Below are positions 13,880 through 42,647 of a DNA stretch of 64,000 nt, one piece after another. A program made the translations under genes and the position numbers. The stretch comes from Psychroserpens luteolus (GTDB lineage: Bacteria > Bacteroidota > Bacteroidia > Flavobacteriales > Flavobacteriaceae): the NCBI RefSeq assembly GCF_021032705.1, contig NZ_JAHVXI010000002.1, positions 372,001 to 436,000 on the forward strand. Direction: 5' to 3'. How positions within the stretch are numbered: position 1 is the first letter of the stretch; every line of letters starts with the position of its first letter. The notes below the pieces were generated by a model. The model did no database searches and was not told the origin of the DNA. It saw nothing but the letters and a program-made list of their open reading frames with translations.

Positions 13880-15589
13880 CTATTGATGTTCGAAAACAAA
13901 ACCATTACTTTTTAAAATTTCCTCAAGAATAATTACTTCAATTTTTATATGTGTAGAAGGTGTGTCCAAAAAGTATTTTTTTTCACCATTAGCTTCATTA
14001 TGAATTTGAAAATTACGGTTAGAATCTTCGGCTGTGGAGTGAATAACAGAGTTGTTTCTTATATTTTCATCTTTATTCCAACATAATAACCATCTAATAT
14101 TATTAAATGTATGATTAAAACTTTTTCGAAGAATATGTTTTAGTTCTACATAATAGAATTCCGAATCAAAAACTGAAACTCCTCCGTCCTTAGAATACGC
14201 CAACATGTCTATTCCTGTTGATGTATTATAATCGATAGGTTCAAATGGGAACCACTCGGGTTTTTGAGAATAAAGAGACATGAAAAACCCGAATAATTCA
14301 GCTTCATTATCTGGCTCAAAATAGGTTCTCCCATCGATCTTTAATATCTTCTTTTGTCTAATTTTTTCTTGCCTCCTTCTATATTCGGCAATTTCCATAT
14401 TCTTGGTTTTTTCAAATTTTATTATTTTATTGAGCTCATAAAGCCCTTCTTCATACATTATAACATCTATTTCATCAATAAAATTTTTCACAACTCCTTG
14501 TAACTGTCTTAAAATTTTAGGATTAGTATTTGCAACAGTCCCTCTATTCGCCGTTAATTTTAAATCTTGGCAATTAATAAAACCATGAAGTAATAAAACA
14601 GCATTAGATCCCCCTCCAAAACCACTTACCCATTCATTTTTTCTTTCAATAGGTATAAAATCTTTACATAAATAAATACCGTATCTGTCTTGTGATCGAT
14701 ACGAACCAACTTTTGCCCTTACACCTCGTCTTTTCAATAACGGATTTATAGACTCCTTTGCCTTTTGTCCCTCAATATAAATGACTATGTCGTAATGCAC
14801 ATCGGGACTTTCTTCTAATTCTCCACTTAATTGAAATTTCCTTACGTACATTCCATATGCATCATTGCCATATTCGTCATAAAGACTATTAATATCTTTA
14901 GTCTCTTCGGGAAAAGAATGTCCTATAGAAATGCTTTTAAAATTTTCTTCATTAAACGATTTTAAAAATACCTGAAAATTCTTTAACCTCTCGTCTTTAA
15001 GTTCTATAAATTCATTTTTAACAGTACCAACTATAGTAAACCATTTTAAGTAATCTTTTATTTGATCAAAAGTAAAAGCTTTTTTTTCATTTAAATTGTA
15101 TCCAACAATTCTAATTTTAGTGCCTTTATAACCATTAGTATTTGGTAGGTGTTTTAATCGTACTGTATGAACTTCGCCATTATTTAACGCCTTAAATGGG
15201 TTTAAACATGAAGCTATATAACATTTGTCTTCACAATATGTTGTTACCTCTACTTTTTCTGACCTCAAATAAATTTTCGTTCCATGACCTTTTTCGCCAA
15301 TGTTATTAGCTTCATCAATTGATGCAGAATTTCCTAAATCCCAGAAGTTTTGTCTAATTTGGTTAAGGTTCATCCCTTGACCATCATCAGTTATTTCAAT
15401 GACTAATTTTTTTTCTCCATCTATCTCTTCAGCACCAACGTCAATTTTAACTTCAGTTGCTCCCCAATCATAAGAGTTATGTATAGCCTCTCTAAAAATC
15501 TCTAATGGGTTACCAAAATCCCATGAAATTTCTTTAAACTCTTTAGCTACGTTAACGCTTGGTTGAAAATCTTCACTTTTTTTTTCCAT
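13880..15589 (-). CDS. GHKL (MORC-like) ATPase with probable PD-(D/E)XK nuclease C-terminus
   Basis: 569 residues. The N-terminal GHKL ATPase is clear: N-box FREAIHNSYDW (Glu34, Asn38), G1 box TDDGQGM (Asp68-Gly72) and G2 box GEKGHGTKI (98-106). The middle has the S5-like NPLLKRRGVRAK and LTANRGTV segments. A coiled stretch (about 385-420) leads to a C-terminal domain with Glu429/431 in DNEAEL, Asp461 in GIDML and YYVELKH (Glu482-x-Lys484), the E...D...ExK pattern of PD-(D/E)XK nucleases. MORC-like ATPases with nuclease domains are known from restriction-type defence loci. ATG 15589 is preferred over TTG 15601. The gene stands alone between core genes, behind a palindromic upstream site. Antiphage function is inference. 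Confidence 0.8.
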   Translation of the reverse strand: MEKKSEDFQPSVNVAKEFKEISWDFGNPLEIFREAIHNSYDWGATEVKIDVGAEEIDGEKKLVIEITDDGQGMNLNQIRQNFWDLGNSASIDEANNIGEKGHGTKIYLRSEKVEVTTYCEDKCYIASCLNPFKALNNGEVHTVRLKHLPNTNGYKGTKIRIVGYNLNEKKAFTFDQIKDYLKWFTIVGTVKNEFIELKDERLKNFQVFLKSFNEENFKSISIGHSFPEETKDINSLYDEYGNDAYGMYVRKFQLSGELEESPDVHYDIVIYIEGQKAKESINPLLKRRGVRAKVGSYRSQDRYGIYLCKDFIPIERKNEWVSGFGGGSNAVLLLHGFINCQDLKLTANRGTVANTNPKILRQLQGVVKNFIDEIDVIMYEEGLYELNKIIKFEKTKNMEIAEYRRRQEKIRQKKILKIDGRTYFEPDNEAELFGFFMSLYSQKPEWFPFEPIDYNTSTGIDMLAYSKDGGVSVFDSEFYYVELKHILRKSFNHTFNNIRWLLCWNKDENIRNNSVIHSTAEDSNRNFQIHNEANGEKKYFLDTPSTHIKIEVIILEEILKSNGFVFEHQ

Positions 15590-15614
15590 ATGGACATGCA
15601 AATATTTTATTTTG

Positions 15615-15622
15615 CCACAATA
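15615..15622 (-). promoter_or_regulatory. Weak -7-like element TATTGTGG of the MORC-like gene
   Basis: Read on the minus strand, TATTGTGG partly matches TAnnTTTG. It lies 22 bases downstream of the TTG that abuts the palindrome at 15648-15663 and about 25 bases before the ATG at 15589. The match is imperfect, so this is a tentative assignment. Confidence 0.3.
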
Positions 15623-15644
15623 TCATTTTTTTTATTGATAGAGT

Positions 15645-15663
15645 CAATACGTAGTACTACGTA
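15645..15663 (-). promoter_or_regulatory. 16-bp perfect palindrome TACGTAGTACTACGTA next to TTGA: candidate operator
   Basis: 15648-15663 is a perfect palindrome. On the minus strand it runs straight into TTGA (15647-15644), a possible -33 element of the MORC-like ATPase gene, which starts 59 bases away. A nearly identical site, TACGTAGTCCTACGTA followed by TTGA in the same register, lies upstream of the SIR2-TPR gene at 42162-42177. The position suggests an operator bound by a dimeric regulator. Confidence 0.6.
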
Positions 15664-40048: not shown

Positions 40049-42052
40049 TTAGTTTTTGTTCGTAGTTATTCTTTTTGCAAATTCTTTCAGTTTATCCGGA
40101 TTAGGATGTCCATTTTTTAATGCAAAATCCACATTTTGATCAAAACTCCATCCTACAGCCCTAATACCTTCACTTAACAACTCTTCGATCCTATTTTCTG
40201 AGTCATTGATAGAATCATAATAATGTGCATATTTATAAAACCACAATTCAATTAACAAATCTATTTTCTCATTATTATTCAAAAGAAATGCTTTCTCTAA
40301 ATATCCTGTAGCATCATCTTTTTTATTTGAGATTAATAGAAAACGTGCATAATTACCATTAATATTGGCATCATTAGGATTAATTGAAAGTGCTTTTTGA
40401 TAAAATTTTTCCGCTTTCGGATAGTCCTCTCTTATATCACATAAGAAGTTTGCATAATTTCCGTTTTTAATTAAACTTTGAGAGTCTATAGATAAAGCTT
40501 TTAGGAAATGCTTTTCCGCTTGATCGTGTTTTCCTCTTATTTTATATAAAAAAACAGCATAATTTACATTAACATTGCTTTCTTCAGGATCTAAGGATAA
40601 AGCTTTTAGAAAATACTTTTCAGCCTTATCGTAATCTTTCCTAATGAAATGTAAAAAGGCAGCATAGTTTCCATTAGTGTTTGCATGTTCAGGATTACTA
40701 GATAAGGCCTTAAGATAATACTTTTCAGCGTTATCATAGTCATTTCTTATTTTATAGAGAAAATTAGCATAGTTTCCATTAGTAAATACGCTTCCTGGAG
40801 CAATCGATAATGCTCTAACATAATATTTCTCTGCATTTTCATAGTCTTCCTTTATTTCATGCAAAAAGATTGCATAATTCTCATTGTTGTTTGCATTTTC
40901 AGGATCAACAGATATGGCTTGTTGATAATATTTTTCCAAATTGACATGATCCTTTTTTATGAAATGCAAGAAAAAAGTGAATTCATTCCATAACCATGCA
41001 GTTTTAGGAAAAGCCTCTAAAGCTTCAAGGTAAATAGTTTTACGTTTTTCATAATCCTTTTCACTCTTTGCTACACTAGAATATTCAAACGCAGAAAGTT
41101 CTTTTTTTACTGTAGAGTCTAAGATTTCTGATTTAGCCTCAATGTTCATTTCTTTTAATTGTATATCCATTGCTTCAATCCGACTCTTTGTTATATCATC
41201 TAGTTCTTCTTTTATAGGTTTAATTTCATCAAACACCCAAAGTAATTCTTGCATCATTTCATCAAACCCATCAATTTCAATATAAAACCCATTCATTTTT
41301 TTTATCAATTTTTCAACACGCTTTGTAGGCTTAGATTCTTTGTGTCCGCACCAAAAAAAGTTACTCGGCTTATTCATCTTTTCAAAATAATCCATCAAAC
41401 TTCCATCATTTCCTCCATATCCGATAACAATTGGGATATGTCCGCTAAAAATATTATCTAATGGTTCTTTCCATCCTTCATCAAGTCTATTTATTTCATC
41501 TGGATCACTTTTAGGAGATAACAAAAGATCACGATGAATTTTTATTATTAATGGATGGATGTTAGAAGGTCTAGCATAACCACTTAAGGATTCGTGCCCA
41601 CAAACCAATGGTGTTCTATCTGTATATTGATAAATTGAGGATTCAATTAAACTGTCGAAATTCGTTGTAAGAATACAGTTCCCGGGTGCCTTTGTCAATA
41701 TTTGAGCAAGAACAATATGTCCAAATGTAGGTTTTGCTGATCGCATGGCCTGTACTAAAAATTCATATCCAGAAGTTTTGTCACTTTCAAACCGTTTTCT
41801 ATAAATGGCACCATAATGAGTAGCTATATCTTTTTTATTTAATTTTACTTCTTTAATCCACTCTTCTATTTCCAAATCGGAATATCGCTCTTCTATTTCG
41901 GCAAACCATTTTTTTGCTAATTGACCACCTGTTGGAATACCACTTTTATAGCTTGCTCCTGCTCCAATGATGAAGCAGAATTTCCTACTTTCGGTATTTG
42001 TATGAATGTCTCTAAGCGTATGCTTGAAATTATGAAGACTGATTGTTTTCAT
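40049..42052 (-). CDS. SIR2-like NADase domain fused to TPR repeats, candidate defence protein
   Basis: 667 residues. The N-terminal SIR2-like domain (about 20-270) shows GAGAS (30-34), TTNFDSL (129-135, Asn131), KIHRD (His173) and GYGGNDGSL (211-219), the NAD-binding and catalytic positions of SIR2 effectors such as those of Thoeris and DSR systems. A helical linker (about 275-330) leads to seven tandem TPR-like units with an exact 35-residue period (about 355-598), each carrying NYAxFL and DYxxAEKYYxKALS. The gene stands alone on the minus strand with its own promoter and an upstream palindrome. SIR2 proteins of this type deplete NAD on infection; that role here is inference. Confidence 0.82.
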   Translation of the reverse strand: MKTISLHNFKHTLRDIHTNTESRKFCFIIGAGASYKSGIPTGGQLAKKWFAEIEERYSDLEIEEWIKEVKLNKKDIATHYGAIYRKRFESDKTSGYEFLVQAMRSAKPTFGHIVLAQILTKAPGNCILTTNFDSLIESSIYQYTDRTPLVCGHESLSGYARPSNIHPLIIKIHRDLLLSPKSDPDEINRLDEGWKEPLDNIFSGHIPIVIGYGGNDGSLMDYFEKMNKPSNFFWCGHKESKPTKRVEKLIKKMNGFYIEIDGFDEMMQELLWVFDEIKPIKEELDDITKSRIEAMDIQLKEMNIEAKSEILDSTVKKELSAFEYSSVAKSEKDYEKRKTIYLEALEAFPKTAWLWNEFTFFLHFIKKDHVNLEKYYQQAISVDPENANNNENYAIFLHEIKEDYENAEKYYVRALSIAPGSVFTNGNYANFLYKIRNDYDNAEKYYLKALSSNPEHANTNGNYAAFLHFIRKDYDKAEKYFLKALSLDPEESNVNVNYAVFLYKIRGKHDQAEKHFLKALSIDSQSLIKNGNYANFLCDIREDYPKAEKFYQKALSINPNDANINGNYARFLLISNKKDDATGYLEKAFLLNNNEKIDLLIELWFYKYAHYYDSINDSENRIEELLSEGIRAVGWSFDQNVDFALKNGHPNPDKLKEFAKRITTNKN
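40259..40990 (-). repeat. Seven 105-bp tandem repeat units encoding 35-residue TPRs
   Basis: Encodes the TPR array of the SIR2-TPR protein. The NYA tripeptide or its equivalent recurs at residues 392, 427, 462, 497, 532 and 567, exactly 35 residues apart. Canonical TPRs are 34 residues. Confidence 0.8.
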
Positions 42053-42130
42053 TAATCACCTTTATTTAATTTATATTACAACTAATAAGTTTTATATGAT
42101 TTAATTTCAATAAGCCATATTCAACTCTAA

Positions 42131-42161
42131 CAAAACTAATTTTTATACGTTCACCAATCAA
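42131..42161 (-). promoter_or_regulatory. Promoter TTG-N20-TAGTTTTG of the SIR2-TPR gene
   Basis: Minus strand: TTG at 42161-42159 (part of TTGA), a 20-base spacer, and TAGTTTTG at 42138-42131, an exact TAnnTTTG match. The -33 TTG abuts the palindrome at 42162-42177. The ATG is at 42052. Confidence 0.6.
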
Positions 42162-42178
42162 TACGTAGTCCTACGTAT
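42161..42178. promoter_or_regulatory. Palindrome ATACGTAG-TC-CTACGTAT, candidate operator
   Basis: 8-bp perfect arms around a 2-base centre, directly upstream of the -33 element of the SIR2-TPR gene. It differs by a single central base from the palindrome upstream of the MORC-like gene (15648-15663), and the flanking TCAA is the same. Confidence 0.6.
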
Positions 42179-42179
42179 A

Positions 42180-42647
42180 TTAGCGCAACCATTTCCGCAT
42201 CTTTGGAAACTCTGCCTCCTCGCAAAGTCCCATCCAACTTAGTAAAGGCAATCCCATATAAGTTCCGCTTGAAAATTGCTCAATAAACCAAGGCGAAGCA
42301 TTTTTATAACCATGCTCATGAAAGACAATACTTGGGTCGAGTTGTAAATGCTGTACTGCCGCATAAGACCATAAAATGGCGACGATCTCATCACCTTGTG
42401 TCGGCCAGTCTGCTTCCATCTTATCTGTACTAATATGTGGTCGCAACTTGGCTTCAGTAACAGCTATATGTCCGGCTTCATGCAACAGGTCTCCTGGATA
42501 TTTGAGTTTGGTCTCATCTATTAAAATGCATTGCCCTTGCAACTGTATACCTGGTAAAAAAGTATCGTCATCTAAGTTGGTCTTGACGACCTGAATATCT
42601 ATCGATTCTAAAAATCCAATAATGTGCTCTACAAGTTCTTTAGCCAT
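42180..42647 (-). CDS. HExxH metalloprotease-like protein (possibly ImmA/IrrE-like)
   Basis: 155 residues. LLHEAGHIAVTEAKL contains an HExxH zinc motif at about residue 56, in a small soluble protein, which resembles the ImmA/IrrE peptidase arrangement. The surrounding TKLKYPGDLLHEAGH and WSYAAVQHLQLDPSIVFHEHGYK do not give a firm family call. It is 6 bases behind the phosphoesterase gene on the same strand and so probably co-transcribed with it rather than with the SIR2-TPR gene, whose promoter lies just after its stop. Confidence 0.65.
   Translation of the reverse strand: MAKELVEHIIGFLESIDIQVVKTNLDDDTFLPGIQLQGQCILIDETKLKYPGDLLHEAGHIAVTEAKLRPHISTDKMEADWPTQGDEIVAILWSYAAVQHLQLDPSIVFHEHGYKNASPWFIEQFSSGTYMGLPLLSWMGLCEEAEFPKMRKWLR

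Follow-up and report, generated by a model that had tools for sequence, protein, structure and literature searches.

The locus described here raises the question of whether two unlinked candidate defence genes of Psychroserpens luteolus answer to one regulator and, if so, to which. The window, a 64,000-nucleotide stretch of contig NZ_JAHVXI010000002.1, carries the palindrome TACGTAGTACTACGTA at 15648..15663 and the near-palindrome TACGTAGTCCTACGTA at 42162..42177 (neither assigned to a strand), the proposed operators of a MORC-like gene and a SIR2-TPR gene, respectively. A preliminary description had located both sites correctly and in the same register. Both genes lie on the minus strand, on which TTGA directly follows each palindrome. 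The reported 59-nt gap to the MORC-like gene (13880..15601) fits a probable start at the ATG at 15589, the listed open reading frame (ORF) opening with TTG at 15601; the SIR2-TPR gene (40049..42052) starts 109 nt from its palindrome. The proposal that one dimeric regulator serves both sites is supported, in that the palindrome family tracks a single NarL/FixJ-type response regulator and the site is embedded in a promoter of fixed spacing. The TTGA at the palindrome edge has to be shortened: TTG is kept, but the final A is not conserved, other units of the same genome reading TTGA or TTGT. Comparison of sequences makes it very likely that the palindrome is the operator of a response regulator conserved among flavobacteria. 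In our main reading, to which we assign a probability of roughly 0.8, this dimeric regulator would drive a core of small RNAs and a membrane peptide, and distal genes, including the MORC-like and SIR2-TPR genes, would have been recruited to its promoter.

The promoter has a rigid order of palindrome, TTG, exactly 20 nt and (T/G)AnnTT, seen in both window genes and in five units on contig C11. Upstream of the MORC-like gene, a -33-type TTG (15645..15647, minus strand) abuts the palindrome and the -7-type element GATATTGT (15617..15624, minus strand) lies 20 nt past it. The SIR2 promoter has the same layout, with TTG abutting the palindrome at 42159..42161 (minus strand) and, 20 nt on, the element TAGTTTTG (42131..42138, minus strand), an exact match to TAnnTTTG. 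The MORC -7 element is poor, and those of the array units in the P. luteolus genome read GAnnTTT(G/A). The fifth C11 unit has a degenerate palindrome, with 9 of 12 half-site bases, yet keeps the promoter spacing. The TTG at -33 is part of the Bacteroidetes housekeeping promoter, and a centre near -43 is the position of a class II activator. Placing the -7 box at -12 to -5, where passages of a Flavobacterium psychrophilum study map the consensus TAnnTTTG (PMC9723704), puts the predicted centre of the MORC palindrome near -43. A class II promoter dependent on a response regulator has its operator immediately upstream of the core promoter at a set spacing, as is seen here, and the constant distance at which the site abuts the -33 element favours an activator position over a repressor or terminator reading. 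The position of the site by itself would thus suggest activation rather than repression.

Chance is ruled out as the source of the palindrome. The window holds seven matches with up to three mismatches on both strands, against a shuffle mean of 0.86, and none of 100 shuffles reached seven. Across the 3.84-Mb genome, TACGTAGTNCTACGTA occurs exactly at nine places, against 0.009 expected from composition (GC measured on 214 kb of sequence); allowing up to two mismatches raises the count to 14 on the forward and 16 on the reverse strand, compared with five and four for the reversed control pattern. Four of the nine exact sites are clustered in ~600 bp on contig C11, two are in the window and three are single sites on C43 and C53. 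The edge TTG is missing from three of the nine, one having TTT in register and two not fitting the register; the palindrome at C43:309118, with TTT for TTG at the same spacing, lies before a gene of 1065 aa whose product, by eye, has leucine-rich repeats. Many random or coding copies, as in a dispersed repeat, were not seen: no exact copy lies inside an ORF of at least 90 aa, except for an overlap with the stop codon of the response regulator gene.

The C11 cluster is flanked on one side by what looks like odhB (by eye) and on the other by the gene of a 211-aa response regulator with REC and GerE domains (L018:9067-9702, contig C11, minus strand), whose stop codon is overlapped by the first palindrome. 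The regulator protein shares 100% identity with its counterpart in an uncultured Psychroserpens record. The two domains, PF00072 at 2.1e-26 and PF00196 at 5.5e-15, make up the NarL/FixJ architecture; the receiver residues are canonical by eye, and solved relatives include DesR, VraR and NarL. Among the ORFs of the surrounding 19 kb, no kinase gene was recognised by eye. Adjoining the regulator gene is one for a retropepsin-like aspartyl protease (L018:9769-10251, minus strand), a homologue of which lies beside the array in G040, G197 and G207.

The association between regulator and palindrome extends across the family. The strict pattern TACGTAGNNCTACGTATTG was found in 17 of 199 family genomes (reversed control, 0), and in many of the 199 the best match to the regulator is directly upstream of a palindrome. 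A palindrome-blind sample was formed from all 83 genomes (82 genera) among the 199 whose best regulator match had E <= 3.7e-54, and half-site bases, out of 12, were scored over a stretch opening 12 nt before the regulator stop and closing 400 nt past it. All 12 were present in 37 genomes, at least 11 in 65 and at least 10 in 76, where the other 223,112 positions of the same loci give expectations per stretch of 0.004, 0.017 and 0.033; for palindromes of at least 11 of 12, this means 65 of 83 observed against about 1.4 expected. Seven loci (L251, L258, L267, L277 at a contig end, L294, L296 and L297) have no palindrome of even 10 of 12. A further 11 of 11 regulator orthologues fit, their genomes having been chosen for carrying the promoter. 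When the central bases may vary and the -7 element must be present, the promoter is found in 72 of 397 family genomes (reversed control, 0), and the full promoter pattern is exact in all 23 of 23 Psychroserpens genomes (reversed control, 0). An orthologue of the regulator at E <= 1e-55 is found in 37 of 42 promoter-positive genomes versus 45 of 157 promoter-negative ones (Fisher p 2e-12).

On the main reading, the response regulator would be phosphorylated by some kinase, and its dimer would bind TACGTA-N4-TACGTA directly upstream of the -33 TTG, activating housekeeping RNA polymerase at the weak -7 element in the class II manner. Beside the regulator gene, its conserved targets would comprise a membrane protein and a handful of promoter units, from each of which a short structured RNA ending in a separate terminator would be made. 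Distant genes would be recruited lineage by lineage, the promoter arriving with the gene, as proposed for MORC, or the gene settling behind a resident promoter, as proposed for SIR2.

The adjacency could instead be mere synteny, with another LuxR-type protein or an unrelated dimer binding the palindrome. The array is retained beside the aspartyl-protease gene in G040, G197 and G207 without an orthologue of the regulator, promoter matches occur without one in G069, and G048, G117 and G196 are promoter-positive without an orthologue at 1e-55, so the link between regulator and palindrome is not absolute; the recurring order of aspartyl protease, regulator and array also makes the adjacency partly inherited synteny. 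Congeners of G040, G069 and G197 keep regulator and palindromes adjoining, which suggests that the regulator was lost. The paralogues bear on both sides. Three of four at 44-45% identity have a palindrome of at least 11 of 12 bases at loci of their own, the miss being in G197, and those at 40% identity in G028 and G029 likewise have their own palindromes; at 29-31% identity one of five has such a site and four do not. The G197 miss and the distant 31% regulator of G040 break the simple pattern, whereas the sites of the closer paralogues, the lack of them at most distant ones and the presence of the regulator in all of the match-rich genomes G221, G366, G388 and G130 argue for the regulator itself, and we consider binding by some other dimer improbable. 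Still less credible, and largely refuted, is the reading of the site as a dispersed repeat or mobile promoter that no dedicated regulator serves. It would fit the repetition of promoter and 5' UTR before unrelated genes in G366, where near-identity reaches 99% over 145 nt, and likewise in G221 and G130; copies elsewhere, however, share the palindrome and promoter register and not the flanks, the central bases tend to agree inside a genome and differ between clades, and the site adjoins one regulator gene in most of the 83 genomes, which span 82 genera, as a neutral repeat would not.

What the regulator gene is conserved with is not defence: the conserved core of the regulon is the small-RNA array and a ~35-aa membrane protein beside it. 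Each C11 unit runs, on the strand of the regulator gene, from a promoter through a short stretch to a terminator-like hairpin. Requiring CTATT within the first 22 nt yielded 159 units, spread over 81 of the 107 loci analysed; 60 loci have a unit with AGGGAG, the further requirement for the aligned set. Alignment of one unit per locus from 47 of the 60 (13 were left out for badly cut ends or near-identity) gave the consensus CAnTGCTATTAATTAGTTCTTAGGGAGAATTATAGAAAGCTCTGAATTGTAATGATTTAGAGCTTT, in which the invariance of CTATT and AGGGAG is by construction, both having been required in selection, whereas that of the surrounding sequence is not. Eleven of the 13 pairs of the terminator stem show compensatory changes. 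With their own promoter, an intrinsic terminator and conserved sequence, the units have the marks of small RNAs, which would be expressed from the array and would have regulated targets. An RNA model of the units has three matches in the P. luteolus genome, all in the array. An order-wide search with this model matched 11 of 196 genomes at E <= 0.001, seven of them in the family; the four out-of-family matches, at 6e-4 to 9e-4, are weak, three of the seven family matches are weak too, and the stricter filters of such a search lose weak matches. Rfam gave two tRNAs above the gathering score and nothing else over seven array loci, and over L018 a tRNA alone reached gathering, with the array unmatched by any Rfam family.

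The P. luteolus array ends with the gene of the ~35-aa single-pass membrane protein (L018:8190-8300, minus strand; METMKNKQSLTNKIFIAGLIFSAILIISINILVNFF). Of the 81 loci, 72 have hydrophobic ORFs of 22-80 aa among the units or after them, and 66 have ORFs with a short motif ending N-[ILVF]; 70 of the 77 motif-bearing ORFs are 31-39 aa long, and the few shorter ones are spurious. Forty-six align with a mean column identity of 45%, the invariant N being due to selection. In many genera of the family, small-RNA units and membrane protein recur together as a conserved module, of which we found no description: among the matches listed from the open-licence PMC literature (titles and starts of abstracts), none describes the operator, the RNA or the module, and four spellings of the palindrome 16-mer are absent from that literature.

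The MORC-like and SIR2-TPR genes are, by comparison, patchy in occurrence. The MORC-like protein has the GHKL domain HATPase_c_3 in Pfam (HATPase_c falls below its cut-off) and, by eye, a C-terminal GID...ELK motif that suggests a PD-(D/E)xK nuclease; no PADLOC model of a catalogued defence system matches it. HATPase_c_3 is shared with the paraMORC ATPases, whose genes, as passages of PMC8011034 state, mostly have restriction-modification, nuclease and helicase genes around them; those passages concern other proteins, and they contain neither the word 'promoter' nor 'palindrom' and describe no operator. At E <= 1e-20, the MORC-like gene is present in one of 23 Psychroserpens genomes and one of 397 family genomes. 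Three relatives were found among plasmids, the best, at 39% identity, on a Caballeronia plasmid and two on haloarchaeal plasmids, and the MORC promoter region had no match in the phage collection. Alignment of L333 to the window revealed that the segment 13876..15711 (no strand assigned), with both gene and palindrome, is absent from the sister genome G217; as both are missing together, the operator came with the insert, or left with it. The upstream neighbour, an Asp/Asn beta-hydroxylase-like gene (PF05118; 15699..16301, minus strand), has a match in 13 of 23 Psychroserpens genomes.

The SIR2-TPR protein scores 28.4 bits for PF13289 (cut-off 24.5) and has TPRs besides. Its SIR2 part matches the PADLOC SIR2 and Argonaute-linked (pAgo) models, down to 2e-35, so that the protein joins a SIR2-like domain to a sensor part, as in anti-phage SIR2 proteins. 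It too is found in one of 23 Psychroserpens genomes at E <= 1e-20. In G217 the segment 39984..42156 with the SIR2 gene (no strand assigned) is absent and 38 nt stand in its place (L324 alignment); the palindrome belongs to the flank common to both genomes and is decayed to TAATTAGGACTACGTA in the sister. Upstream of the SIR2 gene lies a 155-aa neighbour with no Pfam match (42180..42647, minus strand). In G216 a homologue of the 155-aa gene is followed by the palindrome TACGTAGAGTTACGTA and then by a different, 444-aa gene; seven genomes have the 155-aa gene, and the four besides P. luteolus, G217 and G216 show no full palindrome there. The decayed site in G217 and the different gene in G216 indicate that an operator can stay resident while the gene behind it changes. 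As recruits, the MORC-like and SIR2-TPR genes, both probably encoding defence effectors, would respond to whatever signal turns on the small RNAs.

Distal targets were defined as sites that do not adjoin the regulator or array and are followed within 450 bp by the start of an ORF of 60 aa or more. The 102 sources gave 70 such sites, a sample drawn from the promoter matches listed, and ten more without such an ORF, one of which (L143) is an array remnant. Pfam was run on 62 of the 70 targets and on 22 upstream neighbours; 29 of the 62 had no match. Domains above the curated cut-off include SIR2_2 in the window SIR2-TPR protein, DUF4231/SLATT in L094, TIR in L148, L214 and L238 (the last two also with SEFIR), DUF4062 in L208, AbiH in L209, NB-ARC in L228 and PLDc_2 in L207; L095 has AAA_21 with an HNH-like region below its cut-off. 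Leaving out MORC (HATPase_c_3) and L097 (PHP), and with families chosen post hoc, immune-type domains occur in 10 of 62 distal targets versus 0 of 22 neighbours (one-sided p 0.04), and one neighbour has HNH_3; the other 52 targets have no counted domain. For PADLOC, 20 of the 70 were chosen as the most defence-like or unfamiliar, and ten matched at 1e-5 or better, with the remainder, including MORC, SLATT and NB-ARC, unmatched. The matches are to PtuA/PtuB (3e-215), PDC-M49A (8e-291), bSEFIR twice (2e-92 and 3e-79), PDC-S66/ThsB (5e-60), PDC-S60, AbiH and an LmuA-like model. In 60 neighbours six models matched, each in one member, and hence in one to six proteins. At 1e-5 the contrast is 10 of 70 targets versus 4 of 60 neighbours (p 0.13, the 4 assuming that three IetA models are one protein), and at 1e-8 it is 9 of 70 versus 2 of 60 (p 0.05). 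The other distal targets include a contractile sheath (L141), an Hcp/TssD protein (L211), a non-specific nuclease (L146) and an amidase (L218), and many further ones are lipoproteins or of no assigned family. Defence enrichment among the distal targets is thus modest.

One protein of the Psychroserpens genome G045 (L095:5598-7859) matches both the PtuA and PtuB models of Septu and lies directly behind a regulator promoter. A ~60-aa membrane protein ending PTGS is found behind such promoters in four genera (L092, L096, L223 and L231), and metallo-beta-lactamase-fold proteins in three genomes (L087, L145 and L233); the fold is assigned by Pfam for L087 and L145 and from the N-terminal sequence alone for L233, and L087 is close to the LmuA/RTasMBL/Avs1a models.

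The suggestion of a small defence regulon therefore survives in part: defence genes are over-represented among the distal targets, whereas the conserved copies of the promoter stand before small RNAs and the membrane protein. A regulon truly devoted to defence, in which the regulator senses infection to switch on defence genes and the small RNAs serve that response, would be in keeping with the immune-type domains and the strong PADLOC matches listed above. Against it, the conserved core has no known link to defence, most distal targets are lipoproteins, secreted or of no assigned family, the domain list was drawn up post hoc and the PADLOC contrast weakens at 1e-5; we think such a regulon unlikely. 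WYL-type regulators such as BrxR and CapW are dedicated to single defence systems, are encoded inside the locus and mostly repress. They resemble the present case as dimeric regulators acting upstream of defence genes and differ in that, here, a chromosomal response regulator at a distance would control many unrelated genes.

The SIR2 leader has a 5'-UTR element (42077..42141, minus strand) resembling one of ~65 nt that is repeated after distal promoters in several genera (alignment of 13; L225, L227, L229, L148 and others have it). Related elements without a palindrome also lie between co-oriented genes in G366. Integron cassettes can carry defence genes, and the co-oriented genes of G366, with repeated boundary elements after a regulator promoter, are cassette-like in this respect. 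A loose attC-like core pattern occurs in 16 of 70 distal leaders, compared with 3% of random windows. Unlike attC sites, these elements fold no better than shuffles, the bottom-strand hairpins of five elements giving z from -0.3 to -1.0. The element is possibly a gene-cassette boundary, attC-like by eye only. In L214 (G366:C1:2343000-2354000), a row of co-oriented unrelated genes is partly parted by related boundary elements, and two genes of the row lie behind near-identical regulator promoters.

We tentatively suggest, as a speculative extension that is itself doubtful, a signal-gated platform, in which the response regulator would keep promoters with a cassette-like boundary ready, and incoming genes, defence genes prominently, would stay silent until a signal, perhaps envelope stress, arrives. 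If true, acquired immunity genes would, from the moment they arrive, belong to a single chromosomal stress circuit shared with a small-RNA family not described before. The fitting of horizontally acquired defence genes into host regulation is largely an open question; here the sequence gives access to the operator, its likely regulator, the core targets and separate recruitments, and the sister species provides a natural pair with and without the genes.

Among known systems, NarL/FixJ class II activators of the DesR/VraR type share with the present regulator the REC and GerE domains and a dimer-type palindrome just upstream of the promoter core; the regulator described here differs in having no recognised adjoining kinase gene and in its targets, small-RNA arrays and acquired genes. 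The Qrr RNAs of Vibrio and LhrC of Listeria are multicopy small RNAs under one regulator. As in those systems, there are several sibling RNAs, each with a promoter of its own that would depend on the regulator; the phylum, RNA sequence and regulator class are different, and the units here are in tandem after the response regulator gene, with a membrane peptide. Rfp18 and other small RNAs of F. psychrophilum resemble the array RNAs as conserved flavobacterial small RNAs with a stable fold (PMC9723704). Passages of that study predict Rfp18 to pair through its third stem-loop and report effects on protease mRNAs, whereas the array units have one conserved terminator stem. These passages do not support the identity of Rfp18 with the array RNA, and 'response regulator', 'LuxR' and 'palindrom' are absent from the main text of that paper.

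Paralogues and a fragment of the regulator were also seen. The P. luteolus genome has a paralogous response regulator, 48% identical, near position 9343 of L025; a sensor-kinase-like gene precedes it (by eye), and the degenerate palindrome TACGTGTCACTACGTA lies two bases after it. In L071 and L072 (G028 and G029), a second regulator, ~40% identical, has palindromes with the centre GACC/GGTC and lies near long secreted proteins, that of L072 with beta-helix matches. Lastly, G303 contains a fragment of the regulator, the HTH part alone (residues 143-208; G303:C2:690903-691100), near a promoter copy at 690708-690752 that is identical in sequence to the copy at 509186, apparently a partial duplication of the junction between regulator and array.
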